Shown here: in pieces, positions 1 to 57,726 of the stretch | Position numbering within the stretch: the stretch's first letter is position 1 | How the letters are laid out: each line of letters begins with the position of its first letter | Assembly (NCBI GenBank): GCA_021030905.1 | Contig: JAGFMI010000004.1 | Coordinates: 1,178,001-1,242,000, forward strand | From: Pyrenula massariospora | Lineage: Eukaryota; Ascomycota; Eurotiomycetes; Pyrenulales; Pyrenulaceae | Direction of reading: 5' to 3' | DNA length: 64,000 bases | Notes under the pieces: generated by a model | The model's input: only the letters and a program-made list of their open reading frames with translations | Told to the model about the DNA's origin: nothing | Databases searched by the model: none | Program-made: the position numbers and the translations under genes

Positions 1-2264
1 CCCGTAATCCCAGTAGGGCCGCTAGGACGTTCTTGTTGTCAGAGTTGACTGTTAATGCCATTCGAGTTTGGGACTTATCTGTAGGACCAATCGCTCCAGA
101 GGGGCTGGGTCATATCAGTGACAATTTATATTCGGATTAGATTGCTACAAACCCTGATATTCCAATTGGACCCTGCTGGCCTGTAACACCTTGCACACCC
201 GTTGGGCTGTCATAGTAGTCAACATCTGTGATTGTTCGTCTTCGGAGTCGATTAATGCAGACCCTTGTGCCCCGGTAGGGCCTTGCTGGCCTGTTACACC
301 TTGTACACCAGTGGCACTTTCATAGAAGTCAGTACAAGTGAGCCTTCGCTTCGAAGAGATAGATACATACCCCACTAGACCGGTTGGCCTTGCACAGCAG
401 TCAGTAATCAATCGCCCTGATGAATAATCGGGACATACCCGGTTACACCCTGTGCTCCGCTTGGACCTATCAACACTGCGTTAGACGATCTACGTGATCA
501 TTGACGTACAACACGTACCAGTTGCGCCAACGGGACCAGGAGGTCCGCTTAGGCGTAGCATAGATGTCAGTATCGGACAGATTCAGAAGACACAAGGAAC
601 TTATCTGAAGGGCCTGTCGGGCTTAAAGCATGCGGTCAGCATTTGACAACTTTTTCGTGAAAGGTCACATATCTTGGACGCCCTGTGGACCTGAAGCGCC
701 TTGTGAACCTGCATGCGTGAGCAGTTGTAAGCTAGAAGTCTTCTCAATTAGCTACCTTGCGGGCCAATAGAACCCTGGTTAAGTCTCAAGTCAGTTAAAT
801 CAACGAGATAGGAGGGAATTCATACCTGTGATCCTTGTTGACCGACAGCACCAGTTGGTCCCACAGGGCGTGAAAAGGAATTTATTAGCATAGGTAGAGA
901 TTATAGGAAGGCAGAGACTCATCAGAGAGGCCTTGTAGACCTGAAGGACCTTGCGAACCTGCTCATTTAAGTAATACAGGTTAAAAAGACTTGGGGATAT
1001 CTACCTTGCGGTCCAATACTTCCCTGTTTCATTCAGCATTGATAAATCTAGTTTAGTACAAAGTATTCATACTTGAGGTCCTGTAGGCCCTGTAGGTCCT
1101 GTAGCACCCACAGCTCCCGTGATCCCAGGACTTCCTTGTTGGCCCGTAGGGCGTGGCCAGAAAGTCAGTAAACGATGTTACTCAGTATGAAAGTGAACTC
1201 ATCTTGCGCTCCTACAGGGCCTTGTGCTCCGGTGGCACCAACTGGGCCAGAGGGCCTGGCATTTTATTAAGCAAAATGTTCATTCACAGACGAGGAAACC
1301 GTACCCTGTGGCACCTTGAGGGCCTGATGGACTTGATTACGATTCAGTGTTCATGCGCCATTGAGATTGACTATATCATACATACCCGCTTGGACCGCTA
1401 GGACCTGGACCGCCTAGCTGATTTCCACATGCAGCAGCTAGGCGCGAGATGCCGAGCTGCACGTAAATGCACCCCTCGCTCGGCCCGTGACTAACATCAA
1501 AGACAGCGACAACAGTATTGTCTGACGACCGGATGCAAAAAGAGGCTTGATTGTCCGGAAAGGCTGGGTTGTTCCAAATCAGGTGGTTGTCGCTGTCGAC
1601 AGCGAAGGTCGAATTGATAGAGCCAGTCACTGCAGTGGGTGTAAAATTCTGGTAAGGTACCCCTGGATTTGTCGAGTACTGCAAGGAAATGCCAGAGCCA
1701 GTGCTATTGGCGAATAGTTGTCCATTAACGATCGAGTATACTGTTACGTCGCTACAATTACCGGGCCCACCCTCTATGGTGATGAAACTTCCACCACTGG
1801 CTTGCCTGCGCTCCACGTCGCGGGAAGGGGGAAGGAAGAATTGTACGACAAAGTCTTTCGTAATCGCCGCGTCGTCTTTTGGTATTTGTGAGGTGCTAGG
1901 AATGTTAGCTCAAAGATTCGTCCGGTAAATTAGATACGCACAAAACTCTTGAAGTAGATAGAATTGTCGTAGTCGTCCCATCGAGGATAGTGTTGAGGCT
2001 AGTTGGGGCGTTGTTCACCGTGACTGTTAGGGAGTCATCGACAACGAAATCTGTATTTTGAGCAACGAACGTGTTGACGTAGTAAGGCTGGATAATGACC
2101 ACCTCGCTGACGGACTCCTGATCAGGACCCGCTTGACATGCTGGCGGCAGATTCTTTTGTACAATCGATTGGAAGGTATCCTGCAAGGCGAAATAGGTCG
2201 GAACTTGAGTTGTAAGTAGTATCAAGCCATAGTACATAGATGGTAGAAGAATTCGCTGATTCAT
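1..2264 (-). CDS. secreted collagen-like protein with N-terminal DUF7908-type domain (3' end outside window)
   Basis: Start ATG at 2264; the N-terminus is hydrophobic (MNQRILLPSMYYGLILL), consistent with a signal peptide. Exon 1 is 1942-2264 and exon 2 1386-1895; together they encode a fungal extracellular domain (VVDDSLTVTVNNAPTS, then CSDVTVYSIVNGQLFA and NQASFCIRSSDNTVVAVFD) that I match from memory to DUF7908. After it come Gly-X-Y triplets spread over micro-exons: 1305-1331, 1203-1255, 1073-1152, 1005-1023, 923-958, 826-869, 756-774, 673-708, 605-622, 519-554, 439-466, 371-388, 263-316, 153-206, 79-104 and 1-28 (open at the edge). Joined this way, 67 triplets run without a break, and every intron in the repeat splits or borders a Gly codon. 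Twelve introns are GT-AG; five begin with AT. Likely a cell-surface or secreted triple-helical protein; function unknown. Confidence 0.85.
29..78 (-). other. AT-AC intron in collagen-like gene
   Basis: 50 nt. Donor ATAAGT after ACA G, branch-like ctgac, 3' end aagaAC followed by GT CCT. Phase 1, restoring Gly (GGT). Confidence 0.75.
555..604 (-). other. AT-AC intron in collagen-like gene
   Basis: 50 nt. Donor ATAAGT after TCA G, branch-like actgac, 3' end atgctAC followed by GC CTA. Phase 1, restoring Gly. Confidence 0.75.
623..672 (-). other. AT-AA intron in collagen-like gene
   Basis: 50 nt. Donor ATATGT after CAA G; branch-like gctgac; 3' end ctttAA followed by GC CCG. The nearby AG is one base further on and would break the frame; the AC inside the branch motif would keep the frame but insert five residues that break the Gly register. 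AT-AA is therefore the best fit. Confidence 0.6.
870..922 (-). other. AT-AC intron in collagen-like gene
   Basis: 53 nt. Donor ATGAGT after TCT G, branch-like gctaat, 3' end tttcAC followed by GC CCT. Phase 1, joining to GGC (Gly). It sits at the same place in the duplicated exon cassette as the AT-AC intron at 1153-1202. Confidence 0.75.
1153..1202 (-). other. AT-AC intron in collagen-like gene
   Basis: 50 nt. The donor after CAA G is ATGAGT; the 3' end is ggccAC followed by GC CCT. A branch-like ctgac lies shortly upstream of the end. Only this boundary restores Gly (G + GC) and keeps the Gly-X-Y frame; I found no GT-AG alternative that does. Confidence 0.75.
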
Positions 2265-18224: not shown

Positions 18225-18590
18225 TAGTTCTATTTGACATCTCAAGACTATCCGGCATCTTACACCTAACCAACATCTCACAAATATTCGATCTCTTACA
18301 TCCATTCGGTATTTCACACCTATTCAGTATCTTGCACTCATTCGGCATCTCATACCTACCCGATATCCCATCCCTGTTCAACATCTCATACTTATCCAAT
18401 ATCTCATACCTATTCAACATCTTTCACCTATTCAACACCGCACATCTATTCAACATCGCGCACCTATCCGAGATTTCACAACTATTCAGCATCTCACTCT
18501 TCTTCAACGGCACATACCTATTTGACATTCGACAAGCATCCAACATCTCACACCTATTCGACATCTTACAATTATGCAATCCTGATTCCG
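18225..18590. repeat. 18-bp tandem array open in both directions
   Basis: About 20 imperfect copies of ctcatacctattcaacat. The plus strand is open from 18332 to 18775 and reads a hexapeptide repeat (SYLFNI-like). The minus strand is open in one frame from 18609 to 18208 except for one stop and reads an EMLNRC-like hexapeptide repeat. Neither product is recognisable. Confidence 0.7.
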
Positions 18591-18844
18591 ACGGTTCACG
18601 CTCTTTCAACTACCGAGATAAACGCTCTAGCGCTAATGGCAAGATAAAAAGATATTTCTCTATTTTTCTGTCAAACTGCTTCAACAAGGAGAACATTTAT
18701 GACCGATTTCGACAGTTTGGGCGCAGGTTATCGATGATTTTTCCATGTCCGACATGTACACCACCGAAGAGATAGCGTTTGTATGGTATAAAAGGGGAAT
18801 GGAAGAAGTGTATGTTGATTTGAATACAAAGTGGCGTCACATAG

Positions 18845-18951
18845 CTGGGACAATGTATATCTGGGCAAGCTGGGACAATATATACTTGGGCAAGCTGAGA
18901 TTATGTATATGGGCAAGTTGGGACGATGTATATTTGGGAAAGCTGGGTGAA
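18845..18951 (+). repeat. ~25-bp tandem array, four copies
   Basis: Four imperfect copies of agctgggacaatgtatatct plus gggca, then a partial copy. Confidence 0.75.
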
Positions 18952-19756: not shown

Positions 19757-21612
19757 CTAGCCCCTTTTCCTCACCTTCACGGTTAAATCCTCCCTCGGAA
19801 TTCGGAACTCCATGAAATTATGCACCTTTGGCTTTTCCTTCATCACGTCCACATCATACTTCTGCACGATATTCGCCATCAAAAGCTTCATCACATGTGC
19901 CGCGATGAATCTTCCCGGACACGAGTTTTGCCGGTACCCGAACCCCAGGAAGCTGTTGTCGAGGGTCACGAGGGATTTGGCGTAATCTGGGCTCGGGTTG
20001 GTGGGCGAGGGGGCGAAGCGGAAGGGAGAGAATCGGGTGGGGTCCGGGTGGAAGTCGGAATCCATGTGGATACAGTGCAAGGGGATTTGGATTTGAACGC
20101 CCTGGGGGATGGTGAGTGACGGGCCCATGGGTATGCCCGTCGGGGAGGTGACCTTTCGAGACAGTGAGTTGCGATTGTGAGGATCATGGAATCTTTTCGA
20201 TCTAGGAAAGGGGAACATAGAGAAGGGGAGTAGTTTGCTCAGACTTACTCGGCGGTCGAATGCGGTCCAACCAAAATCGGAGAGCCTCATTGATTCGCGG
20301 ATGGTAGAATCGAGGAGAACAAGTCGCGAAATCGTGTCTTTAGTCCATTGCCCTTCGGGACTATCCTTAAGGACAACATCGATCTCTTCACGCAGCGTCT
20401 CAACGAAACACTCGGACGACGGAGCGCTGTAGAGGTCCGTTAGGACGTGGAACAAGGCTATACTCGTAGCATCGATCATGCTGAAACTGAATAATACTAG
20501 ACGATGAGCGATCAGTCGAGGTGTGATTTGCTTGGGATCTTTATTAGTGGGGCTCTGTTCGATGGCCCACTGCAGAATATCATTCTAGAGCCCAAGTTAG
20601 TTGCATCAACTTTGGCAAGCCAAGCGAGATTATGGTGGATTTGCGGCTATTCTTACAGGCGGCGTCCAGCGATCACCCAACCCAGTCTGATATTTCTTGA
20701 CTTGTTCCAATCTCTGTTCAACAAATGGTATTAATACCTGTATGCTTGTTTCGCATTCTTTCTTGCCTCTCCACGTGATCAGAGGGGCCAAAAGAGGTTT
20801 CAAGAAGTTCGGTAACATGGCGATGGCAAGGCCATCACGCAAGACCGACATCGAATAGTTTGTCAAAGGTTTCAGGAACCTGTCATCACGACCTGTATAC
20901 GTCAGATGAGAGGCTAAATACGTCGAGCACACTCACAGAGTTCAGGGCCAATGGCAATCCGATTGACAGCTCTAGCAATAATCTCCTCGAAAGAACCGAT
21001 TGCGATAATGGTCTTCCACTCCGTCGTAGAAGTACCCCAGACAGCATCAAAGGCAAGTGAGACTTCATCGGCAAGCTCTTCAGCTACCTCACCGAGCCGT
21101 TTAGTGATTGTTTTCCGAAGGAGGCCGACGTGGTAATTCGTAGGTTGAACTTCCGGCTCTCTTATCGTATACTTTGACGAAATAGCCTCAGCCTGCGAGC
21201 TATGTGCTGCAAGCTTGCTTTCAGTATTGCTCAGTACAGTCTTGAGCTGCCCTGGCGGAAGGACAAGAACGGGTCCCTTTCTAATATTCGGAACGAGGAA
21301 AGGAACATTGCTTTTACCGTACTTGAGGTTTAGATTAGCGAAGTTGTATAGTAAACTTCATATTCTAACTATCACCTTGACGTATCCTTCTTTGATATCA
21401 TCCGCTGCCTCAAAGACAGAGCTTAGCATTGCGTGAAACCATGAGAGCCATCGCTGATGCTTGCCCGGATATGGCTGGGATGCATAGAATTGACCAAGCT
21501 TGCGACCTGTGAATAGCTTCTCGACAATGTAATACAGTGCAAGTATAGGGAAAATGGCAACGAGAATAAGCGTTTGAGGCCGAACCTTACGGTTCAACAT
21601 ATCCACAGCCAT
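19757..21612 (-). CDS. cytochrome P450 (CYP503/68-like fungal monooxygenase)
   Basis: Five exons (21376-21612, 20937-21321, 20657-20892, 20249-20584, 19757-20152), 529 aa; introns 54, 44, 72 and 96 nt, all GT-AG. An N-terminal membrane anchor (LILVAIFPILALYYIV) is followed by the usual landmarks: I-helix region FSMIDATSIALFHVL, ExxR in LDSTIRESMR, FHPDPTRFSPFRF and the heme loop FGYRQNSCPGRF with the Cys ligand at 19907-19942. The heme loop lacks the usual Gly two residues after FGY's Gly and the basic residue before xC (expected FGYGRNSCPGRF-like). General organisation resembles fungal ent-kaurene oxidase-like P450s; the substrate cannot be told. No terpene cyclase, PKS or NRPS lies nearby. 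Confidence 0.88.
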
Positions 21613-37082: not shown

Positions 37083-38789
37083 CTAGCAAACCGTGATATA
37101 GAGGCCAATGGGAGCTTGATCGTAGTCCTGGAAGTACTCCAGGTCCAGCGAACCCGTCGCACTAACCTTATAGCCGACAGTCTGCCCCGCCGCACACGGC
37201 CCACTCGAGACCACGTAGCTATTGCCTGGCGTGACGCTTGTGACGCTGCCAACTGTGCCCGAAGAACCAGGCACAGTGTCGTACGTGGTCGAGGTTGTAG
37301 CCGGACTGCTGAGCCCGCTCACCGTCATGCCACCGGAACCGGAGAGAGTGAAGCTGGAAGTGTGGAGCTGGTCCTGTGTTGGGAAAAGGAAGACCAGCGT
37401 GCAAGTTTTGCTGGCGTCTGCTGGGGGAATGTCGAAATTGAAAAGTGAAGAGATTGTAGGCGAGAAATGGCCGTTGTAGCTTGTGCCGTAAGCGGTGGAG
37501 GGCAGCGCACTATTAACTGGGACTATGAGGTGTGGGAACTCGAAACCAGGGTTGAGTGTTGTCGGACAGGAGGACCCGGAGGGCGAGGGTGTAGAAAACG
37601 TGGTTGACGGCCCAGCTGGAGGGGTGGAGGTCAGGCTCGAGGTCAAAGTCGAAGGAGGCGGACTAGAGGTAGGGGGAGAGTTAGAGGGAGGTGTTGAGGA
37701 AGGGGGAGGCGCCGAGGAACTTGAAGATGTACCCGATGATGTTCCGCATGAAATATCGTACGCTGGGCTATCGGCGAGGCTGCTGCCGATAATGCCAAAA
37801 CTAGGGCTTGGGGTTGTAGGAGCAGCGTCTTGTAGGACATACCACCTACAGAGCCAGTGAGCAACACGCTGTAGCAGGTGGTGACAGTGGTAAACTTACC
37901 AAGTATTGTATGTCCTATAAAGAGAGCAGGCAACCTCGTTATAGTAGCGCTGCGCGTTCTCAACGGATGGAACGGCTTGATTTGATGTTGGTCCCGAGAG
38001 AGGCCAACCAGTCTCCGTCACCCAGACTGGCTTCCCTTGAGCATCGTCGATTGTCGCATTCAAAGCTTCGAAGAAAAGTTCCCTTCCATTGTCAATGCTG
38101 TTTGCCTGGGTGTTCTGGAAATATGGGTACGCGTCGACACCAACAAAATCAACTGCGGATGTGACAGCAGAGTTTGAACCGTTAACCCAAGCAGTCCATG
38201 TGTCGACGTGACCGACAGGCTTTCCGCTCAGGATTGTTCCGGAAATGGCAGATCGTAGCTGGCCAATATAGTTGGTGATATCGGTTGGCTCAGCTCCAAC
38301 TCCAGATTCATTCTCAACGCCAATTGGAGAGATCCTATAGAGATCCTCGCTTCCGACGGAGATACCAACCACTGCATCGGCAAATTGCTGCCCGTATTGC
38401 GAGATTGCTGATTTCAGAGCTGCCAACTCATTATCAAAGGCTCCCTGGCCTCCCGAGCCCCAAAGGCCGAGTAGCAGCGATGTGCCTGTGTTGACGGCGG
38501 CGGGAATTGCTGCTATAGGGGAGTTTGCTGTGCCAGCCTGCGACGCATCAGCTTAGGGTCTTGAGAGCAAGTATTTGTGCGATGGAAGCATTGAGCTCAC
38601 CTGCACCGTTGTAAAAAGCCGCGCGCTAGAAAATCCTAGAGACTGAGCTTTTTGAAATTCCTGAAAAAAGTCTGACTCTGCCTTCGGAGAATTGTCAGTG
38701 AAAGTGCTGCCATAGTTCGACCCTTTGTATGATTGGGATACAGACGGCCCAAAAAGAGCAGCAAGCGAAAGAAGGATTGGCAACAACAT
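37083..38789 (-). CDS. secreted GH17 endo-beta-1,3-glucanase with But2-like C-terminal domain
   Basis: Three exons (38601-38789, 37900-38537, 37083-37845), 529 aa; introns 62 and 54 nt. The start at 38789 gives a classic signal peptide ([19 protein letters not shown]). The GH17 barrel shows [25 protein letters not shown], the acid/base Glu in [26 protein letters not shown] and the nucleophile Glu in [15 protein letters not shown] Ser/Pro/Thr linker follows, then a domain with [40 protein letters not shown] and a Cys-ended C-terminus, which resembles the fungal But2 C-terminal domain. It should act on cell-wall glucan. No GPI signal: the But2-like domain is at the end instead. Confidence 0.9.
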
Positions 38790-39869
38790 CTGAGCGAGTG
38801 TGGTTGATGTGCAAACAGAGAACATCCGAGATGACAGAAGAAAGACGGAGAAAGGAAGAAGAAAGACAGGTTCGATACGACATCTTGCCAAGCGCTGGAT
38901 TTGTGAGCTGAGCAGAATGACGACTGCGAGGAGGCCGCCATATCCATATCCGCAAGAAGCCGCATTAGCCTATGTCCATGTGCACCTCTCACGGAAGACA
39001 CGGCGAGACAGGTGAGGCGTGACCACGAACGCTGGAAGCCGTTGAGCAAACATCTTACCTAATTGAAGGCCAGGGATACGAGTGACTGACGTCGATCAAC
39101 CGCCGAGACTCGAAGAATGTGAGACGAGGCCAATGGGAAGACCGGTCAGGGAGAAGGAGACGGGATGCCAGGAAAAGAAGCTCGCCACGGCGAAATCCAG
39201 GTATAAGCGGTAGAAGCGTTTCTTGCACTAAAGTCAGCTCTCTTGGTAACGGAGAGAGGTAGAGTGACGCGGTCTGGAGGGCTGTCTCTTCCGAGAAACA
39301 GAATTTCCGGGACGTCGGTTTGTAGTGGTTAAGGCAGCTCCAGTACCATGCGTACCTGAAGAAGAAGAAGCTGCAGTTGATGCCAGCATTCCCCGCACAC
39401 GCCGCCTGAAGATCCCCGGGGCTTGGCGTTGCTTAGCTCCGCCCCCAAAAGGTTCGTTGACAAAAGCTTGTCCTGCAGGCGGTGTGCAGAAGGTTGTGAG
39501 GACTTCGCCGAGGTCACACCGTTCGATCTATTGTGCAACGGCACACAATCCTCACACTTGCAGGTAGCACATGGCAAGCTAGAATTGGAACTGCAATCGG
39601 TAGAAATTTTCAATGTCTCTTGGATGCTATGTAAATATGTAAAATAGGCGATTGGTATCAATCATCCATGTCCCCATCTATTAGAAATGCTTCGCCTGCG
39701 GCAATTAGAAGAATCCTCGACTTGATCACCATCCGCACAAGCTCACCACTTGCCACCAAGCTTCACATACACGAGAACCGGCTGGCAGCCAACCTTCAAC
39801 AGGTAGTGAAACCTGACTCGTCTTATCTCCAAACCTCAAAGCAGAACCAGTCTATGGATCGATCACTCT
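38790..39869. other. intergenic
   Basis: 1.08 kb upstream of the GH17 gene and downstream of the cupredoxin gene, both on the minus strand. No gene recognised. Confidence 0.45.
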
Positions 39870-55732: not shown

Positions 55733-57726
55733 TCATTTCTTCCAGTCAGCTTTAATCAGGTCCGCCGCCTTCTCTCCAATACCATAAGCGGGCATTTGCG
55801 TGTGCCCGTTGTTCAGAGTCGGCATGATGCTGGTATCAGCGACTCGTAACCCTCGCACACCTCTAACGTGAAGTTCCGCGTCCAATACAGCGAGCTTGTC
55901 GTCATCTGTGCCCATTTTGCATGTTCCACCAGGATGATAACATGTCGTGGCATGTTGTTTGACATAAGGCACCCATTCCTCACGTTTAGTATGCGTGTGG
56001 TGCGTTAGCTTCGAGGGCCAGCTGCCTGTGGTAATGTCCTTAGTTCCACTGCCTTTGACAACAACTTCGTTACCTAGGCGGACGGCTTCGCTTAGAACGA
56101 GCAGGTCCAGGGGGTCCGCCAGAAAATTGCTGTTCACTACTGGGTTCTCCATCGGGTCAGCGGAGCGCAGCGTGACCGTCCCTTTGGAACGTGGAGAAAA
56201 TAGCTCTGAAATCATAGCGAAAGCATGTTTGTGGTCGATAGGGAAATCATCATACTGCTTTGGACCACCGTAAAGCTCCGTTGTAAAGAATTCGACATGA
56301 GGCTGCTTTGGCGTGAGATCCATCGGGTCCCTGCCATCTTTACGAGGCGCGTCTCGCCAAAGTGCTTCGTTTTTGAGACGATCGTCTAGCCTGGCGAACG
56401 CAAACGCGCCGAACGGAAAAGTCGAAAGGAAACCAGACTTTGTATCCTTCCATAGCTGGTAGCTTGTTGATAGTGCATCACCATGGTAAGCTAGATGGTC
56501 ATTTGTCAAGCCTTCTTGCTCTGTCTCGTAGAATACGAAGACAATCTTAGAATAGTCAGTGAGGGCTCAAATGATAGCCCGTGTCGGTTGGAAGAGATCA
56601 AATGTTTCGAAGCTTACCAGATGATCCATCAAATTCTTTCCAACGCCTGGGGAATTGACCAGGCATTCAATACCATTCTCTTGCAGCTCCTCTTTGGACC
56701 CAATGCCAGATCTGAGCAAGATGGCAGGAGAGCAGTAAGCGCCACCGCTGACAACAATCTCTTTTTTAGCCTTGATAGTTCTACTTTGACCACCTTTCCC
56801 AACCAACTGGACAGCCGTTGCTTGGAGGCCATTCTGCATCTTCTCTATTACAAGCTTGTCAACTATAGTCGACACCAAAATATCAATGTTGTCCCTGTGG
56901 TATCCTTTCGTCACAAAGTCAGCACCAGTCGTACGAATCCCTTGATGTACTGTTCTTGGTGCATGCCCGCAGCCATGGCTTCGCTTGCCATGCGAGAACA
57001 TGTCATGGTCAAGCGGGAAGCCTTGAGACTCGAAGGACTCTAGCACCAGCTTCGATATAGGAGCTAGATCGTGCGGTTCTGTATTCAAGGGACCATTGTG
57101 GCCATGAGCATTGATGTCAGCTTCGAACCATGGTTTTCCGTGGAAGGTTTCGGCCTAGATTTATTTAGCATCTACAGCTGCGGATTAATGAACCAGCCCT
57201 AAATCAGACAGAGCACCGTCATTTGACGAGATTGCCCTAGGTGTTGGCAATATCAAATCAGGTTTCTAGTACAACGTACCTTTGACATGTACTTGAACAT
57301 GTCTTCTCCAGACCATCCGGGAATGCCCCAAGAATCGTAGTCTTCTCGACTTCCTCGAATGACAAGCGTGCCATTGCAGCCGCTGCAGCCACCGAGGAAT
57401 TTGCCTCTGCTGAGTTTCACCGACCTCTTATCAATTCCCGGTGCCGGTTCCGTAATGATGTTCCAATCGGTCTCATTCGAATCGAAGTTGTTAGCCCAGC
57501 CACCTACCATATGCGTGTTCTCCAGGTTTTCATTGTGCGGACCGGCTTCCACCAACAGAATGGATGCACTGCTGTCCTCAGCTAGGCGGCCTGCAACCAC
57601 GCACCCGGACGTGCCACCTCTAAAAGACCAATTAGTGGAGAGACACGGCTCTAGCTGTGAGGGAAGCTACCCGCAAATGATGTAGTCGTAGGCGTCAGCT
57701 ACGTCGGTGAGTTGAATAGGAGACAT
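55733..57726 (-). CDS. GMC-family FAD oxidoreductase (choline dehydrogenase/aryl-alcohol oxidase-like)
   Basis: Four exons (57671-57726, 57280-57619, 56618-57154, 55733-56545), 581 aa; introns 51, 125 and 72 nt. The FAD-binding Rossmann motif is YDYIICGGGTSGCVVAGRL, assembled across intron 1. GMC signature 1 lies around RGKFLGGCSGCNGTLVIRGS; signature 2 is VVSGGAYCSPAILLRSGIG. The C-terminal active site has the catalytic His in CYHPGGTCKMG and the second His in NNGHTQMPAYGIGEKAADLI. It oxidises an alcohol with FAD; no signal peptide, so probably intracellular or peroxisomal. Substrate unknown. Confidence 0.92.

Follow-up and report, generated by a model that had tools for sequence, protein, structure and literature searches.

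The 5' part of a collagen-like gene at the beginning of a 64,000-nucleotide stretch of Pyrenula massariospora DNA (contig JAGFMI010000004.1, positions 1,178,001 to 1,242,000; the whole stretch is called the window hereafter) is interrupted by five short segments that the reading frame marks as introns starting with AT, four of them ending with AC and one probably with AA. The gene very probably (probability about 0.83) contains a small family of AT-AC introns of the U2 type, that is, of the major spliceosome, in which A at the first position (+1) and C at the last (-1) would replace G+1 and G-1. There is still debate about the contact between the two terminal intron bases ahead of exon ligation: cryo-electron microscopy geometry has been stated to be unable to hold an A/C pair, whereas mutation work indicated that A/C is functional and A/A weakly so (excerpt of PMC8283771). 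An AT-AC cluster with ordinary major-spliceosome signals would be a rare natural test of intron end matching. With four A/C introns, one probable A/A intron and 11 G/G introns, each about 50 nt long and carried by a single transcript, this gene would offer a natural internal-control set for end pairing. The five AT introns are as follows.

1202-1153, minus strand: AT-AC intron, 50 nt, phase 1, donor AAG-ATGAGT, end GGCCAC, branch TACTGAC
922-870, minus strand: AT-AC intron, 53 nt, phase 1, donor CTG-ATGAGT, end TTTCAC, branch TGCTAAT
672-623, minus strand: probable AT-AA intron, 50 nt, phase 1, donor AAG-ATATGT, end CTTTAA, branch TGCTGAC
604-555, minus strand: AT-AC intron, 50 nt, phase 1, donor CAG-ATAAGT, end TGCTAC, branch TACTGAC
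78-29, minus strand: AT-AC intron, 50 nt, phase 1, donor CAG-ATAAGT, end AAGAAC, branch CTCTGAC

Intron boundaries in the collagen repeat

The joined coding sequence of the gene within the window comprised 1409 nt (469 aa) with zero stops and 17 introns, one GT-AG intron lying ahead of the repeat and 16 inside it (11 GT-AG and the five starting with AT). Pfam profiles matched DUF7908 (1.5e-23) and Collagen (4.2e-30) in the predicted protein, and Gly was present in 66/66 triplets, the long uninterrupted Gly-X-Y run by which collagen-like proteins are recognized. As in fungal collagen-like proteins, the Gly-X-Y repeat stands downstream of a globular N-terminal region. The first-pass annotation of this DNA had reported five AT-starting introns (four AT-AC, one AT-AA) among 16, and its coordinates and letters were correct; its assignment of the other eleven to GT-AG was also borne out, as all 11 were recovered with lengths of 46-56 nt. 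Its count of 67 triplets was not reproduced, since the number is 66 with the GT-AG intron at 518-467, and 67 would need a drift there to AC-TG. The remaining features of the gene are listed below.

1..2264, minus strand: collagen-like gene, 5' part, with ATG at 2264 and the 3' end beyond the window start
1448..1852, minus strand: DUF7908 domain, protein residues 123-257, hand-converted to window coordinates
1..1405, minus strand: Gly-X-Y region, 66 unbroken triplets in 17 exon pieces, the last cut by the window edge
1896..1941, minus strand: GT-AG intron ahead of the collagen repeat, 46 nt, phase 2
1332..1385, minus strand: GT-AG intron, 54 nt, phase 2
1256..1304, minus strand: GT-AG intron, 49 nt, phase 2
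1024..1072, minus strand: GT-AG intron, 49 nt, phase 0
959..1004, minus strand: GT-AG intron, 46 nt, phase 1
775..825, minus strand: GT-AG intron, 51 nt, phase 0
709..755, minus strand: GT-AG intron, 47 nt, phase 1
467..518, minus strand: GT-AG intron, 52 nt, phase 1
389..438, minus strand: GT-AG intron, 50 nt, phase 2
317..370, minus strand: GT-AG intron, 54 nt, phase 2
207..262, minus strand: GT-AG intron, 56 nt, phase 2, weak donor GTCTGC
105..152, minus strand: GT-AG intron, 48 nt, phase 2

The boundaries were examined with a dynamic-programming gene model, the least-informed version of which was given nothing beyond Gly-X-Y and a permitted intron length of 44-60 nt. This version recovered all five AT introns to the base with Gly in 66/66 triplets. 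Forbidding the exact pair of ends at 1202, 922, 672, 604 and 78 cost 3, 9, 3, 3 and 3 points, respectively, and forbidding any of the 11 GT-AG introns cost 0. A fuller model, which also scored donors and branch sites and penalized unusual ends, retained the five AT introns at penalties of 4 and 8 points each. When the model was given no end preference, the ends were kept in 5/5 AT introns versus 4/11 GT-AG introns, because the weak donors of the latter can slide by triplets. In the donor and branch comparisons given below, the AT boundaries are those set by Gly-X-Y alone, and the GT introns are those placed by the full model, which itself favours GT-AG; to that extent the comparisons call for caution over circularity. 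All five AT introns interrupt a Gly codon, and the Gly-X-Y pattern extends to G-AT upstream and to AC-GC, AA-GC or AC-GT downstream and ends there. Their lengths are all 3n+2, so that retention shifts the frame; a retained AT intron led to a stop within 12 codons in four of the five cases, and for 78-29 there was none before the window edge.

The ends themselves were also singled out when 254 unusual end classes were allowed one at a time. AT-AC gave the top score (231.5, with four introns), followed by AT-GG (204.5), which is also AT-starting; the median was 156 and the canonical-only score 130. The best second class after AT-AC was AT-AA, raising the score to 242.4. A frame-free search of both strands of the 64 kb was then applied with a strict motif (G-ATRWGT, then CTRAY, then AC, within 46-60 nt). 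It gave four matches, all in the collagen gene and none elsewhere, against a mean of 1.05 per window (maximum 5) in 40 shuffles, which corresponds to 0.0115 for the collagen stretch; the Poisson P value of 7e-10 is optimistic because the introns were already known when the motif was composed. The same motif ending in AA or AG gave three matches each in this gene (donors 672, 604 and 78), those ending in AG being on donors 672 and 78, with 0 (AA) and 1 (AG) elsewhere. With GT and AG ends, it matched twice here and twice elsewhere.

The intron at 672-623 is the least secure of the five calls, and its AA end is a weak one. Beside AT-AC, the second classes AT-AG (239.4) and CC-CC (238.1) came near AT-AA in score, and three alternatives at this place keep Gly-X-Y, namely GC-AG 681-614, AT-AG 672-614 and AT-AC 672-555. 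When AT-AC alone was allowed, the GC-AG intron 681-614 replaced the AT-AA intron with Gly in 64/64 triplets. It was also observed that the AT introns at 555-672 flank an 18-nt exon encoding GPTGPS, which the join from 672 to 555 (a 118-nt AT-AC intron) skips in frame.

Several observations weigh against U2-type AT-AC introns in this gene. The closeness of AT-AG to AT-AA just given is one of them, and the truncation of the gene by the window edge is another. When restricted to GT-AG and GC-AG, the model scored 168.7 and had Gly in 49/49 triplets if introns could be as long as 450 nt, at the price of 17 lost triplets and three GC-AG introns; with a limit of 75 nt it gave 46/51 Gly and 130.0. Moreover, phase-matched joins between ordinary sites already in the model could bypass three of the five AT introns: 1072-775 and 1004-709 bypass AT 922 with 99 nt of exon lost each, 755-467 bypasses AT 672 and 604 with 90 nt lost, and 1004-467 bypasses AT 922, 672 and 604 with 189 nt lost. 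The canonical-only models were judged much worse, though possible. The first-pass statement that Gly-X-Y forces AT was accordingly worded slightly too strongly, even though all five introns followed from Gly-X-Y and length. For gene finders this locus is a warning, as a canonical-only model loses 17/66 triplets here.

The best surviving alternative, which we regard as unlikely, is that the introns truly start with AT and use other acceptors, through AT-AG or longer AT-AC joins. In-frame AT-AG acceptors are present downstream for 1202 (at least 68 nt), 922 (89 nt) and 672 (59 nt), the AT-AC join 672-555 would avoid the AT-AA intron by omitting the 18-nt exon, and AT-AG junctions were more numerous than AT-AC junctions in Ganoderma (21 versus 13; excerpt of PMC11590231). 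The three AG-ended motif matches would also suit such acceptors, although none of them keeps Gly-X-Y. On the other hand, no in-frame AG exists for 604 before the next donor, nor for 78 before the window edge, and an AT-AG-only model scored 148.5 versus 242.4. The branch A sits 10-15 nt from the intron end in the AT introns, a distance that suits AC and AA ends.

It is less probable still that the AT segments leave the transcript by a route other than AT-AC splicing: GT-AG splicing would skip them together with neighbouring exons and give a shorter in-frame collagen, the AT-flanked exons being dead or optional. The bypassing joins listed above would permit this for three of the AT introns, whereas for AT 1202 and for AT 78, the latter lying at the window edge, no in-frame ordinary bypass spanning 600 nt or less exists. 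Dead exons should also lose Gly-X-Y and their signals, yet Gly was intact in 66/66 triplets and the AT donors were the best by mean match.

Splice signals and the candidate spliceosome

The donors of the AT introns read GAGT, GAGT, ATGT, AAGT and AAGT at +3 to +6 (in the order 1202, 922, 672, 604, 78), and RAGT was found in 4/5 AT introns versus 0/11 GT introns (Fisher P 0.0027). Four of these donors fit the first-pass description as the U2 consensus GTRAGT with only +1 changed, and the fifth (672) reads ATGT. Across eight donor positions, +1 being left out, agreement with the consensus averaged 7.2 in AT and 5.0 in GT introns, some GT donors of the gene being weak (GTCTGC, GTAGCT). The ordinary branch sites noted earlier were likewise recovered, as CTRAY occurred without mismatch in 5/5 AT versus 5/11 GT introns (one-sided P 0.058). 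On average, the AT introns carry the strongest U2-type signals of the gene, as is expected if these make up for the lost G+1.

No corresponding signals of the U12 type were recognized in the AT introns, in agreement with the first-pass annotation. The consensus of the U12 branch site is TCCTTRAC, and the best match to it had 2-3 mismatches in AT introns and 2-4 in GT-AG introns. The donor (TATCCTT at positions 2-8, after the rule RTATCCTT in the excerpt of PMC2846911) showed mismatches at 4-5 of 7 positions in AT introns and 3-5 in GT-AG introns. Removal by the minor spliceosome is hence very improbable, although AT-AC ends served as the first mark of U12 introns (excerpt of PMC10639083) and the terminal dinucleotides are the same: the U12 donor and branch signals are absent here, the U2 CTRAY is perfect in all five, and surveys described in excerpts of the literature detected no convincing U12 introns in Ascomycota (PMC10639083, PMC2846911) or Basidiomycota (PMC10639083). 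Rfam gave no family at gathering score within the window, where 64 kb says little about U11, U12, U4atac and U6atac of the host, and a tRNA scan of the window was empty. Equally improbable is a decaying gene copy that lost expression and took random changes at its splice sites; the weak GT donors would fit decay, but random hits would not yield A+1 with C-1 four times, leave RAGT and CTRAY intact and produce neither a stop nor a broken Gly in 66 triplets.

These signals point to the following course of splicing by the major spliceosome. U1 and U6 would recognize the donor through the exon end (MAG or CTG) and the near-perfect RAGT at +3 to +6, and U2 would recognize the perfect CTRAY branch site, the strengths of donor and branch together offsetting the lost G at +1. 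After branching, A+1 would meet C-1 and exon ligation would proceed. Intron 672-623, probably ending in AA, would have to rely on the less effective A/A pair or use another acceptor. The best model paired A+1 with C-1 four times and with A-1 once, and G+1 with G-1 in 11/11 other introns of the repeat. According to the excerpt of PMC8283771, A/C is the exclusive replacement of the terminal G/G pair in yeast and A/A supports splicing weakly in mammalian introns; in the excerpt of PMC6726248, AT-AC is the most efficient pair in yeast after GT-AG. Both excerpts agree with the first-pass statement that the major spliceosome can tolerate A+1 with C-1. The boundaries required by Gly-X-Y, the signals and the block duplication described below are read directly from the sequence; from the frame and the signals we infer that the AT introns are spliced, and removal by the major spliceosome and selection for matched ends are likewise inferred. 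A natural cluster of U2-type AT-AC introns, as first proposed, appears to be the best reading of U2-like donors and branch sites without U12 features.

Duplication, origins and rarity of the AT introns

The AT introns would have spread within the gene at least partly via tandem duplication of exon-intron blocks, as introns 1202, 922 and 672 mark the borders of two duplicated blocks.

923..1202, minus strand: tandem block copy 1, with AT intron, exon, GT intron of phase 0, 19-nt exon, GT intron of phase 1 and 36-nt exon
673..922, minus strand: tandem block copy 2, with the same part order as copy 1, followed by AT intron 672-623

The alignment of block 1202-923 with block 922-673 scored 149, compared with a mean of 52.5 and a maximum of 87.5 in plain shuffles (n=300); in stricter shuffles keeping Gly-X-Y, codons and intron ends, the mean was 107.8 and 1/500 reached 149. 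Given their places at the block borders, the three introns probably descend from one ancestral AT intron. The likeness of introns 1202 and 922, which occupy matching places, was not above shuffles (60/500 reached the score), with ATGAG and CAC kept in both. Ends kept despite diverged bodies suggest age and constraint, in a test that is weak on 50 bases.

The view that the AT introns are recent copies of one another was not supported. Among 120 intron pairs, 14 exceeded the shuffled 99% level, and the sole AT-AT pair among these 14 (1202 with 604) was twelfth, the remainder being GT-GT or AT-GT; these similarity scores are inflated by shared signals. A common origin of AT 604 and AT 78, proposed from their similar following exons, also lacked support, as 319/2000 Gly-X-Y-keeping shuffles reached the score, and the equal donor ATAAGT is the only link between the two. 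The five AT introns may go back to about three origins or perhaps to fewer.

How surprising the count is varies with this duplication and with the chosen rate, and the case for the introns themselves is independent of it. In excerpts of the literature, AT-AC averages 0.019% of annotated fungal introns (PMC7072748), accounts for 69/14305 RNA-seq junctions in Trichoderma longibrachiatum (PMC4324775) and ranges, among the sites that RNA-seq showed to be used in human fungal pathogens, from 0.09 to 5.19%, the highest values being in two Candida species (PMC6176087); Ganoderma lingzhi has 13 AT-AC junctions with one gene confirmed by Sanger sequencing (PMC11590231), and one yeast protointron has AT-AC ends (PMC6726248). 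Four independent AT-AC introns among 17 would have P values of 3e-12 (0.019%), 1e-6 (69/14305) and 1.5e-9 to 0.01 (0.09-5.19%). For two origins the corresponding values are 5e-6, 0.003 and 1e-4 to 0.22, and for one origin 0.003 (0.019%) or 0.08 (69/14305). If all five share one ancestor, a single such intron among 17 is not striking. The first-pass claim that the cluster is far denser than expected stands as a count; part of the density reflects tandem duplication, with three AT introns at block borders, and AT-AC use is much higher in some yeasts, up to 5.19%, in the excerpt of PMC6176087.

The other genes of the window offered no convincing AT intron, within the reach of a rough gene finder applied to both strands of the 64 kb with an intron length limit of 110 nt. 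It found 13 genes above a score of 40, with 17 introns when ends were canonical and 16 when AT ends were allowed, the edge-cut collagen gene not being one of the 13. Two candidates were offered. The one at 21329-21385 gained 0.2 points over a GT-AG reading and could be either. The other, at 57147-57253 (gain 1.3), was rejected: visual reading favours a 125-nt GT-AG intron (57155-57279) in a GMC oxidoreductase gene at 55733-57666, an intron too long for the 110-nt limit of the automatic finder.

U2-type AT-AC introns are already known, fungi included. Those of animals and plants (AT-AC type II) share the AT and AC ends and are spliced by the major spliceosome in those systems (excerpt of PMC7072748), the likeness here being one of signals. 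Examples are the U2-type AT-AC intron of an Arabidopsis GFP reporter (PMC5473141) and the AT-AC introns of C. elegans, a species seemingly without U12, at least 42 of 59 of which are suspected to be real (PMC3033335). In contrast to the type II introns of animals and plants, four or five are crowded here into one short stretch of one gene, to which tandem duplication contributed, and AA is the probable end of one of them. The excerpts on fungal AT-AC junctions give totals, unlike the several in one gene found here. In the open-licence literature, no report of several AT-AC introns in one fungal gene was found among the matches listed, nor any paper uniting collagen-like protein, fungi, introns and Gly-X-Y.

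A further-reaching interpretation is possible, and we hold it with little confidence. The AT-AC introns could be a distinct inherited class kept by selection and spread by exon-intron duplication, whose bodies drifted while A+1 stayed matched to C-1 (once to A-1). If slower to splice, they might serve as shared checkpoints on collagen amount or length, and the host spliceosome may tolerate A+1 genome-wide.

Other features of the window

The 275-residue N-terminal region of the collagen-like protein had zero relatives in bacterial/archaeal or viral contig collections (one scan each), as is expected of a fungal gene. Upstream of the gene, an element resembling a miniature inverted-repeat transposable element was observed at 2768-2897, with ATT on both flanks and terminal inverted repeats of 32 nt that are 84% complementary and lie 66 nt apart; a 22-base pattern taken from the repeat, with as many as 3 mismatches allowed, matched only its two arms in the window. 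Tandem repeats were present at 18256-18570 (18 bp, 17.5 copies) and, nearby, at 18843-18947 (25 bp, 4.3 copies). A predicted minus-strand gene at 37083-38825 combines a GH17-like stretch with a But2 C-terminal domain, joined across the GT-AG intron 37846-37899. The gene content of the window includes TRP4-like and NAR1-like genes, But2 and DUF7908, which we take to fit a filamentous ascomycete.

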